Shown here one piece after another: positions 35,149 to 39,969 of a DNA stretch of 64,000 bases. The DNA comes from Alphaproteobacteria bacterium (GTDB lineage Bacteria > Pseudomonadota > Alphaproteobacteria > UBA9219 > RFNS01): positions 280,103 to 344,102 of the forward strand of contig WGMR01000007.1 in assembly GCA_016124955.1 (NCBI GenBank), written 5' to 3'. Position 1 is the stretch's first letter. Each line of letters starts with the position of its first letter. The notes below the pieces were generated by a model. It was not told where the DNA came from. It saw nothing but the letters and a program-made list of their open reading frames with translations, and did not search any database. A program made the position numbers and the translations under genes.

Positions 35149-36678
<1,530 letters not shown>

Positions 36679-36710
36679 GCGCAAACGCCCGGCGATTACG
36701 AACAAAGAAA

Positions 36711-36748
36711 AACCCCGCCTCCGGGAAAACGAAGGCGGGGTTTTTTTT
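36711..36748. terminator. Strong bidirectional terminator after atpA
   Basis: AACCCCGCCT (36711-36720) pairs with AGGCGGGGTT (36733-36742) around a 12-nt loop, followed by T8 (36741-36748) on the plus strand. On the minus strand the stem is followed by GGGGTTTTTCTTTG. It can therefore end atpHA and the small convergent ORF at 36771-36926. Confidence 0.93.
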
Positions 36749-37133: not shown

Positions 37134-38039
37134 CTAGGAGATTTGCAGTTTCACTCGTGCCCCTACCTCGGGCAATTGGTAACCCGGTCTCGTAGCCGCA
37201 GGCAGGTCGCGCAAATTCAACACCATTGGTACGCTGCCGCCGTCAATCAGGGTCGAGCTGGAATTCAGCGTGAGGACATTCTTGTGCTTCTTGTCGTCGA
37301 AGAAGGTCTGCCGCACCACGGCCCGGAAGGAAGGGAAGAATCTCTGCGATTGCCGCCCGCCAATTTCAAGGGAAGCTCTTGCAAACGCAATTTTGATGGA
37401 CTTTCCTTCTGCCTTTTCCAGCCTTGCGCGGTCGGCTTGTGAAAGATACAGGCCAACATTGCCAAAATTATCGACCCTGAACACATGGGTAACATCGGGA
37501 GGTGCAGGCACGCTGGATGCGATATCCATAGGCTCCAGTTTGTCGTCAGCCATTTGTTGCGCGCGGGTTTCCGGTTGGGAAAAGCGCAGCGTTTCCTCCG
37601 GCAGCACCTCGAGCGAACGGAACTGGCTGCTGGTATGGTTGGTATTGGTAAGCCGGTAGAGGCTTTTGATCTGGTCCCGGACATATGAAAGCTCGTACCC
37701 GTTCAGGGTGCCGCAAATGACCGTGCCGTCCTTAAGCTCGGCGCATACGAATTCTTTGCGATGGTTCCCCTTTTTGCCGTTGGTTTTGTCCTTGTCTGGC
37801 GGCGCGCAATTGACGGCAAGCACAAGCTTTTCGGGCCGGGACTTGTTGGTGACAAGCTCGGAAACAATCGTGCCGATATCAATCGTGGTGTGCGCGGGCG
37901 TTACATGTAGATCGGCATCGCGGATGCCAAGCTTGCCCATCCAGTGCGTATAGGCGTCCTGTATCTTGGGGACGGCGTTGATCACATCGGTCGTATCGGT
38001 GATGTGGCGTATGCTGGTTCTTGAATATGCTGCGCTCAT
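37134..38039 (-). CDS. Degenerate SAM-hydroxide adenosyltransferase (DUF62)-like protein
   Basis: 301 aa from the ATG at 38039 after GTGAGAA. By eye it follows the two-domain SAM hydrolase/chlorinase (DUF62) fold: I-T-D near residue 14, D-I-x(n)-K-L-V-L-A-V (54-76) where the family has the V-V-D-P-G-V-G loop, G-T-L-N-G (110-114) for G-P-D-N-G, and in the C-terminal domain V-D-N-F-G-N-V (189-195) for the family D-x-F-G-N. The V-D-P-G and F-H-G-R-D catalytic loops are replaced (N-C-A-P-P; F-R-S-L-E). Active family members hydrolyse SAM to adenosine; this one may bind a ligand without catalysis. A predicted terminator and structured RNA lie directly upstream. Confidence 0.55.
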   Translation of the reverse strand: MSAAYSRTSIRHITDTTDVINAVPKIQDAYTHWMGKLGIRDADLHVTPAHTTIDIGTIVSELVTNKSRPEKLVLAVNCAPPDKDKTNGKKGNHRKEFVCAELKDGTVICGTLNGYELSYVRDQIKSLYRLTNTNHTSSQFRSLEVLPEETLRFSQPETRAQQMADDKLEPMDIASSVPAPPDVTHVFRVDNFGNVGLYLSQADRARLEKAEGKSIKIAFARASLEIGGRQSQRFFPSFRAVVRQTFFDDKKHKNVLTLNSSSTLIDGGSVPMVLNLRDLPAATRPGYQLPEVGARVKLQIS

Positions 38040-38135: not shown

Positions 38136-38189
38136 ATAAAAATAGCTTCGGCACAGCGTGGCCCTGCTGGGGACCACAGTGCGGAAGCT
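38136..38189 (-). terminator. Rho-independent terminator upstream of the DUF62-like gene
   Basis: AGCTTC-x-GCAC (from 38189) pairs with GTGC-x-GAAGCT (to 38144), an 11-bp stem with one mismatch closing an inner GTGG/CCAC, CCC/GGG hairpin. On the minus strand it is followed by ATTTTTAT (38143-38136). It could end readthrough from the CxxC gene, end a small RNA, or act as an attenuator for the DUF62-like gene about 97 nt downstream. Confidence 0.7.
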
Positions 38190-38288
38190 CTGATATTCTA
38201 TCGGGGCTTACTGGCTGCGGCGCTTTAGCTATCGGTAACGCGGCAGCAAGCTGCTCCCATCAAATTCCGCGGTTCCGCCGAAACGGAA
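38136..38288 (-). ncRNA. Candidate ~150-nt structured small RNA or attenuator leader
   Basis: A strong promoter (38296-38325) and a strong terminator (38136-38189) bracket about 150 nt with no open frame. Besides the terminator there are local hairpins GTTCCG/CGGAAC (38272-38277 with 38284-38289) and GCAGC-TT-GCTGC (about 38243-38254). It does not match by eye the conserved parts of 6S RNA, SRP RNA, tmRNA, RNase P RNA or the riboswitches I know. Either a stand-alone sRNA or the regulatory leader of the DUF62-like gene. Confidence 0.5.
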
Positions 38289-38295
38289 CATTCGT

Positions 38296-38325
38296 TCTAT
38301 AGGAAATTCGGCCACCCGCCGTCAA
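38296..38325 (-). promoter_or_regulatory. Strong promoter of the candidate RNA
   Basis: Minus strand: TTGACG (38320-38325), 18 nt, TATAGA (38296-38301). TTGACGG is an exact fit to the alphaproteobacterial TTGaCgS element. It starts only 14 nt after the stop of the CxxC gene, so this is a separate start site, not the CxxC gene's own promoter. Confidence 0.65.
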
Positions 38326-38338
38326 GCAGTCTGTATGG

Positions 38339-39889
38339 TTAATTTTGCAGCATGGCGCCGACCCATGCCAGCCATGCGGGCTGTGCCGGGCCGAGCAGGG
38401 CAAAAAGTAAATAAACGACAAGTATAAGCGCCATTGTGGTCATGCCGATTTTGCCGCTCGGCGGCGTCGCCATTTTGCCCGCTGCCGCACCCGGCCCGAA
38501 CCGCCGCGTTAGCGCCATGCGCCCCGCGCGGCCGACCGCGAACCAGCCAAACCCCATCATAACCGGTGCCGCCACAAGCTCGGCCGCCACGCGCGCGGAA
38601 AGCGGCAAGCCGGCAAGCGCGGGCGTCATGAACAGGGCGGCAAACGCCCCGCATGCCAGCGCGACGCTGCCGCCAGAGGCAAGCCAGCGCGCCTTCAACG
38701 TCACCTGTTTCAGCGCGCGCGTGACGTTCTGCATAATCTCCGTGGCACAATTGCGCGAAAGCGCAATCGGGTGCTGGCGCAGCAAATCGCGCGCTTCCCG
38801 CTGCCCCGCGAGCGTGATGCGCAGCGCGTCTTCGATCACCTTTGCCTTGCAGGCATCCTGCAGCATATCGCTGCCCTCGGCCGCCATGGCAAGCGCCTTG
38901 CGCGCGGCCTTGAGCGTGGCATCAAGGAAGGGCGGCACATCAAGCAATGCGCGGCGGTTGCCGAAAACCGTGACGCGCATGCGCTTGTTGAGGATCGAGA
39001 GCGCCATTTCCGCCGCCGGGAAAGCGGCCGTGTAATGCAGACGCTGCACGCTTCCCCCGGTTTCGCCGTCACGCACATAGGAAATATCGGCGTGCCCGCG
39101 CGCCAGCAGATCCGGCCCGTTGCGGCCGATCAGGTTGCGGATAGCTGACGGAACATCCGCGCCGTGATTGATGGCGAAGCTGACCTCGACGCTGTAATTG
39201 AGCTTCACGAGATCGGTGATCATGCCGGTGCCGCGGCACCCGGTGCACTGCATGCCGCCGCTGCCCCTGCATGTAGGGCAGGCGGTCGCGCCGCGGCCCT
39301 GACACGTGCGGCACCCGACGCTGCGCGCGCCACGGCACGTTATGCAAGGTTGCTGCCCGTTGCCGCCCGGCTGCATGCCCGTGCCCTGGCAGGCGGGGCA
39401 TATTTCTTGCCCGCGCGCCTGGCATTGGTTGCAGGGCATGGTCTTGTTGCCATGACAGGTGGGGCAGGCGCTTGCCCGCGCGCCGCCGCATTCAACGCAC
39501 GCTTCGCTGGCCGCCAGCTGTTCGGTGCGCTCGTCCAGTTCGAAGCGCAAACCTTCCGCCCCCCAGCCTTGCCCGGGCATTTTGTGCAATTCGCCTTTGA
39601 TCGCATCGAACCAGCTTTGGGTGGCGGTAAACTCCTTTTGCTGCTTGGTCAGATGCTGCTGCATTTCGGCTGTGGACGCGAAGTTGTGTATCTTGCGGCC
39701 CTTCACTGTGCCCGGCTGGCGCCCGGCCTGCGCCGAAACATGCGGCGTGAGCGTCATGGTTGCCGTCAGTTCGCAGGCCCGTTCCTCGGTGCTGAGAAGC
39801 TGGATGATCTCGCCGCTCGCGCCGTTGGACGAAGCGAGCGCGCGCAGGCGGGCGAGGGCGGCATCGGTAAGCGGGACGGGTGTGTTCAT
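38339..39889 (-). CDS. Membrane protein with eight CxxC motifs (double DnaJ-type zinc region)
   Basis: 516 aa from the ATG at 39889 (a TTG precedes it). An N-terminal region of about 130 residues of no known family is followed by eight CxxC motifs at about residues 131, 142, 153, 164 and 182, 193, 204, 215. Each group of four has an exact 11-residue pitch, with C-x-x-C-x-G-x-G text like the DnaJ central domain (which has four). A mixed domain (220-400) and three hydrophobic segments near the C-terminus (about 405-430, 440-460, 480-512) complete it. Likely binds up to four zinc ions and sits in the inner membrane; function unknown. No J domain or DnaK gene nearby. Confidence 0.75.
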   Translation of the reverse strand: MNTPVPLTDAALARLRALASSNGASGEIIQLLSTEERACELTATMTLTPHVSAQAGRQPGTVKGRKIHNFASTAEMQQHLTKQQKEFTATQSWFDAIKGELHKMPGQGWGAEGLRFELDERTEQLAASEACVECGGARASACPTCHGNKTMPCNQCQARGQEICPACQGTGMQPGGNGQQPCITCRGARSVGCRTCQGRGATACPTCRGSGGMQCTGCRGTGMITDLVKLNYSVEVSFAINHGADVPSAIRNLIGRNGPDLLARGHADISYVRDGETGGSVQRLHYTAAFPAAEMALSILNKRMRVTVFGNRRALLDVPPFLDATLKAARKALAMAAEGSDMLQDACKAKVIEDALRITLAGQREARDLLRQHPIALSRNCATEIMQNVTRALKQVTLKARWLASGGSVALACGAFAALFMTPALAGLPLSARVAAELVAAPVMMGFGWFAVGRAGRMALTRRFGPGAAAGKMATPPSGKIGMTTMALILVVYLLFALLGPAQPAWLAWVGAMLQN

Positions 39890-39969
39890 CAAGGATTGCG
39901 TTGCCGTGGCGGGACGGCTCCATCATACACAATCATCGCGGCAACGAAAGCGGCGGCATCCCGCCTTTT

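Follow-up and report, generated by a model that had tools for sequence, protein, structure and literature searches.

The 64,000-nt window, by which we mean the whole stretch of DNA analyzed, carries on its minus strand a leader of about 150 nt that is a variant form of the SAM-II-type riboswitch. The aptamer core is known from SAM-II; the arrangement of added helices around it, here called P0, P3 and distal P2a, appears from sequence comparison and from the main-text accounts consulted to be the new part. With a probability of about 0.78, the leader would act in cis and attenuate transcription, with SAM turning the gene behind it OFF. SAM is the most likely ligand, OFF the most likely direction and the form with the short proximal P2 the most likely SAM-bound form. 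Of the options that the original prediction had left side by side, a stand-alone small RNA and a sensory leader, the metabolite-sensing leader with an attenuator is backed by the SAM-II-type core, the terminator and helices that covary in homologues.

Promoter, leader and terminator

All features described below lie on the minus strand. The promoter (38296–38325), read from the sequence, consists of TTGACG at 38325–38320, an 18-nt spacer and TATAGA at 38301–38296, and a coordinate check confirmed its place ahead of the structured leader. It begins just past a stop codon, as had been noticed: the upstream gene (38339–39892) ends 14 nt ahead of the –35 box. The same prediction had ranked it among the best promoters in the window, a ranking that our scan does not bear out. 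Taken alone, it is an ordinary 9/12 match to the consensus and is missing from the output of a consensus scanner, for which 1.6 chance matches are expected per 5 kb, because the –10 box is without the final T. At the equivalent position in the copies from the same order, a TTGAC-N16..18 promoter was present in 13 of 25, against 0.4 in shuffled sequences.

The RNA starting at about 38289 contains three strong hairpin regions, in keeping with the several hairpins predicted, and its fold has a z score of –3.6, with no equally good fold among 200 shuffles. The strong terminator proposed for its end was likewise recovered. This intrinsic terminator (38136–38189) has arms at 38189–38170 and 38164–38144, followed by AUUUUUAU at 38143–38136; the stretch from 38189 to 38144 together with AUUUUUAU folds at –27.3 kcal/mol (z –5.4; 0/200 shuffles). 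A U-tract followed the RNA in 20 of the 25 order copies, compared with 2.7 in shuffles, and the predicted product of termination is an RNA of about 150 nt. RNA from the plus strand was rejected as a candidate: its fold is weaker (z –2.6) and it matches no Rfam family.

A SAM-II-type core with added helices

Searching the whole window with Rfam at gathering thresholds gave zero matches. With permissive filters, the sole match was RF00521 (SAM-II, or SAM_alpha; Corbino et al. 2005, PMC1273637) at 38280–38205, aligned from end to end with an intact pocket and scoring 19.9 bits against a gathering score of 36. The nucleotides of the SAM pocket, AUUUG, CUUGC and GCUAAAGC, are complete in the leader, and the features by which SAM-II is recognized, a P1 stem and a P2b pseudoknot with conserved AUUUG, CUUGC and GCUAAAG, are present. 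P1 is formed by CGCGG (38267–38271) and CCGCG (38239–38243), the latter placed by alignment and covariation, and is 100% paired in the alignment. L1, AAUUUG (38261–38266), would provide the third strand of the SAM-binding triplex, the role described for it in the structures of SAM-II and SAM-V (PMC6061858), and UUUGA is invariant in the 59 aligned copies. The 5' strand of P2b is GCUUGC (38246–38251; alignment and covariation); its 3' strand coincides with the pocket sequence GCUAAAGC (38222–38229), aligned to RF00521 and invariant in the 59 copies. The segment between the P1 3' and P2 3' strands has only about 9 nt (UUACCGAUA) in the window copy. This pocket suggests that the ligand is probably SAM. 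We consider it improbable that a SAM-II-like scaffold has changed its ligand, for example to SAH, methionine or another adenosyl compound: the score under the Rfam cut-off and the extra helices would suit such a change, and rare variants of another SAM aptamer have been described to switch ligand (PMC10853860), but the U, A and G positions contacting SAM in SAM-II and SAM-V are invariant in all 59 copies and the regulon is the usual one of SAM-II.

The added helices surround this core. P0, a 5' hairpin (GUUCCGU-UUCG-GCGGAAC, 38272–38289), abuts P1, and a hairpin in this place, at a score of at least 4, was found in 91% of 115 copies against 35% of shuffles. P3 pairs CCGCAG (38215–38220), the antiterminator strand, with CUGUGG (38174–38179), which also lies within the 5' arm of the terminator; the first nucleotides of CCGCAG are also able to form proximal pairs with the linker ahead of GCUUGC. 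In nearly all copies, P3 begins directly after GCUAAAGCG. A perfect 6/6 P3 was present in 103 of the 115 copies in comparison with 11.6 in shuffles; this shuffle control is the fair test, as an earlier z score for the P3 duplex was inflated by strands having been selected for pairing. Double-sided changes occurred in all eight column pairs of P3.

Directly 3' of P3 follows a strand complementary to the linker. In the window copy, the linker UGGGA (38255–38259) pairs distally with UCCCCA (38168–38173), with one extra C, and forms what we call distal P2a; its 3' strand overlaps the 5' arm and the loop of the terminator, and the last GC of the linker can pair proximally instead. The two strands covary: they read CAGG/CCUG in this order, GGGC/GCCC in many Rhodospirillales-type genomes, CCCGG/UCGGG in Ancylobacter and CGGAG/CUCCG in another genome. 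Using one sequence per distinct linker, a test in which permutation removes relatedness only in part, we obtained a mean duplex energy of –7.01 kcal/mol against –4.86 kcal/mol for permuted pairs (z –6.8; 0/1,000 permutations). The test window had been chosen independently of linker pairing, and the signal was absent in five control windows. The automatic P3 finder had picked wrong strands in several long-loop copies, which were set by eye for linker testing. For the whole pseudoknotted structure, 94.7% of the cells were paired and every measure exceeded all 500 shuffles, including 12 pairs changed on both sides against 5.5 in shuffled alignments (0/500). Conserved compensatory pairing in homologues, the check that had been proposed along with the original prediction, was found, P3 and distal P2a both covarying strongly.

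The contiguous P2a beside P2b is a different matter. Proximal P2 pairing is possible in 95.5% of the cells but amounts to just two to three pairs, and as it hardly varies, covariation speaks neither for nor against it; the P2a that covaries is the one distal to P3. In crystallized SAM-II, a 2-bp P2a suffices, and a contiguous P2a of 5 bp is reported for 60% of members (PMC6061858).

The resemblance to SAM-II thus extends over P1, the P2b pseudoknot, the L1 AUUUG and the CUUGC and GCUAAAG pocket, and further to the met regulon, a near-consensus promoter just upstream, a terminator platform and occurrence in Alphaproteobacteria. The window RNA differs in having P0 abutting P1, a covarying P3 directly past the P2b strand and a P2a formed distally, across P3, and in its contiguous P2a being cut to two to three pairs. 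SAM-V (RF01826), according to PMC6061858, shares the H-type pseudoknot and the SAM pocket, but its P3 lies between the P1 3' and P2 3' strands, whereas that of the window RNA comes after the P2b 3' strand. The SAM-V model left the window copy unmatched even at E ≤ 10. RF01726 (SAM-II long loops; PMC2864571), a variant of the SAM-II family, gave no match to it either; one relative, L066, scored 33.4 against the RF01726 cut-off of 44. The combination of P0, P3 and distal P2a was not found in the main-text accounts of SAM-II, SAM-V and tandem riboswitches that formed our scope (PMC1273637, PMC2258182, PMC6061858, PMC9481103 and PMC9373788). Sequence comparison shows the pocket, P0, P1, P3, distal P2a and the terminator, together with their overlap.

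Copies in related genomes and the genes behind them

A DNA search of 59 related genomes gave 23 matches across 17 of them, and nearly every match showed the core CGCGG-AUUUGA-linker-GCUUGC-CCGCG-GCUAAAGCG. When the core alone was modeled, with P1 as the only paired element, 23 of 33 genomes in the order and 107 of 385 in the class had copies, and a pattern scan of named genomes returned 80 loci, including Nisaea, Ancylobacter, Ferrovibrio, Dongia, Thalassobaculum and Hwanghaeella. That pattern demanded GGCAGCUUGC, so the proximal GGC is enriched among these loci by design. The genome of the window itself has two further copies, one (L020) ahead of metF-metE and followed by a terminator, and one (L165) ahead of metA, with P1 as UGCGG/CCGCA and a platform that looks like the ribosome-site type.

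The form with P0, P3 and distal P2a is widespread in Alphaproteobacteria and usually scores under the Rfam cut-off. Most listed relatives of the window copy, which is itself at 19.9 bits, scored 24–34 bits against RF00521, and one, L077, scored 36.8. At 18 loci of named records, picked by the core pattern, all pattern copies stayed under the cut-off; the lone RF00521 match there was a separate SAM-II copy upstream of the pattern copy at L115. With these loci including Nisaea, Ancylobacter, Ferrovibrio, Thalassobaculum, Dongia and Hwanghaeella, Rfam-based annotation seems blind to most copies of the form, and a model derived from the 59 aligned sequences would bring to light many methionine and sulfur genes under SAM control.

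The copies mostly precede genes of methionine and sulfur metabolism, as is expected of SAM-II. By names assigned from reading the sequences, the class-wide downstream genes are metZ/metY (18), an OsmC-like family (15), cysG (13) and metN (9), with metA/metX, metE, metH and metQ among the others. This placement bears on whether the window RNA is a stand-alone, trans-acting small RNA whose resemblance to SAM-II is accidental. Having a promoter and a terminator of its own is what such an RNA would need, but the copies precede methionine genes that are read from the same strand, the terminator has a strand in common with the covarying antiterminator, and we regard this explanation as highly improbable. 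By analogy with the RZ small RNA of Sinorhizobium meliloti metZ (S. meliloti; PMC9373788), the terminated RNA of about 150 nt would also exist as a short RNA; the conservation is explicable without a stand-alone role.

Some copies stand in tandem. The literature describes 44 SAM-II doublets, of which some combine a terminator on the first copy with ribosome-binding-site control on the second (PMC9481103). In our set, 22 of 90 class-wide copies have another SAM-II core no more than 260 nt upstream. The window copy differs in being single, and P0, P3 and distal P2a of a second copy are absent from the main-text description in PMC9481103. Tandem loci include L058, L068, L070, L072 and L115; in the first four of these, no CCACGG-type P3 is present in the first copy and a terminator-like U-tract comes after it, so that one gene is under double control. 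The OsmC-like family, the second commonest gene (L070, L071, L083, L089, L101, L108, L113–L115, L120, L128, L140 and L154), is thereby linked to SAM or sulfur control. We also observed very short cysteine-rich frames at the first start codon past the riboswitch, such as ...LCCCR-stop or MTMCCRRP..., in Ferrovibrio-type copies (L098, L129, L139 and L149) and in Ancylobacter-type copies (L100, L104, L111, L122, L127, L130, L133 and L136), most of the latter having metN after the frame. The pattern suggests a SAM riboswitch stacked upon a cysteine leader-peptide attenuator.

Direction of switching and the gene at this locus

In the window copy, the strand that completes P3 and distal P2a doubles as the terminator 5' arm. 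In class-wide copies it can act as an anti-Shine-Dalgarno strand; in L069, for example, GCGAUCUCCG can pair with CGGAGAUCGC beside the start codon. Pairing with the Shine-Dalgarno region was weakly above shuffles among 83 copies (mean z –0.5). Because the strand is shared with the terminator or the Shine-Dalgarno block, P3 and the gene-off state are alternatives. The P3 state was favored over the OFF hairpin in 75% of the 83 copies, the mean difference being about 3 kcal/mol with distal P2a left out of the sum. This modeled advantage is what a ligand-free ON state would predict.

In the mechanism that we propose, the linker would pair with the strand behind P3 when SAM is absent, P3 would form, and the two helices would keep the CUGUGGUCCC strand off the terminator so that the gene is read. 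SAM bound in the pocket of P1, P2b and L1 would favor the short proximal P2, made of the linker and the first nucleotides of P3; this would weaken P3 and distal P2a, and the terminator would form, leaving the gene OFF and an RNA of about 150 nt. Class-wide copies may use the same swap, with the anti-Shine-Dalgarno strand replacing the terminator. The anatomy offers a testable account of how a single exchanged strand could let a compact SAM-II aptamer govern terminators as well as elements that block the ribosome site. Work on SAM-II switching covers few organisms; the accounts consulted name a metX RNA from a metagenome and metA and metZ of S. meliloti.

OFF is preferred because the met genes behind the RNA should be repressed by SAM, because the S. 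meliloti metZ riboswitch is reported to be an OFF switch that terminates on SAM (PMC9373788) and because the proximal pairing is possible. Some observations sit less easily with this reading: the strongest covariation belongs to distal P2a, which with P3 opposes the terminator, and the window copy is far under the Rfam cut-off and followed by no recognized methionine gene. Were SAM to bind the fold with distal P2a and P3, it would turn the gene ON. The RNA would then represent a structurally distinct SAM-II subclass found across Alphaproteobacteria, in which SAM binds a three-way pseudoknot of P1, P2b, P3 and distal P2a that holds P3 closed and prevents the terminator or a hairpin blocking the Shine-Dalgarno sequence. 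Since the covariation evidence concerns the distal pairing, an ON switch keeps some probability: the P2a that covaries is the distal one, L1 docking stabilizes P2a in SAM-II and SAM-V (PMC6061858), and P3 and P2b occupy separate nucleotides, which lets all helices coexist. Induction by SAM would also be sensible for a SAM-consuming enzyme, and the gene in the window is distantly DUF62-like. Known SAM riboswitches, on the other hand, repress genes of methionine and sulfur biosynthesis and uptake, and the nameable genes behind this RNA are mostly of that kind, among them the metF-metE and metA of this genome; moreover, most copies favor the P3 fold even with no ligand bound. On balance, we judge an ON switch unlikely and retain SAM-induced termination as the preferred reading.

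The gene that would be regulated in the window (37134–38039) encodes a 301-aa protein. Its frame is open upstream as far as a GTG at 38177, within the terminator, and the ATG at 38039 is likely its start codon. The earlier description of a degenerate DUF62 gene held in that a gene is present and weakly resembles DUF62 (SAM hydroxide adenosyltransferase), but not at the level of Pfam: the match to SAM_HAT_C (PF20257; E 0.062) has 14.1 bits, under the gathering cut-off of 25.5, and Pfam at normal thresholds gave zero matches for the protein. In an hhalign comparison with true DUF62 proteins (E 0.15), the GxxNG and DxxGN motifs aligned in order and the His of SFHGRD was missing. A PDB profile search with homologues of the protein returned zero matches, and an AlphaFold model from the single sequence was uninformative (pLDDT 35.5). 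Three other genomes of the order encode homologues, and in G002 and G005 these belong to units led by the same RNA. Control by SAM would fit if the protein is a relic of a SAM-cleaving enzyme.

The surroundings of the locus gave three minor observations. In G002 (contig C2, L016, about 1738–2526), a protein without a Pfam match is encoded between the riboswitch and the DUF62-like gene. The gene upstream of the window copy (38339–39892), also without a Pfam match, has DnaJ-like CxxCxG repeats and C-terminal hydrophobic segments, and a seemingly homologous gene stands ahead of the riboswitch in G002 (L016). Finally, a strong AAAAACCCCGCC...GGCGGGGUUUUU hairpin at 36708–36745 lies between the convergent atpA, which ends at 36678, and the riboswitch-led gene, and could serve as a terminator for both.
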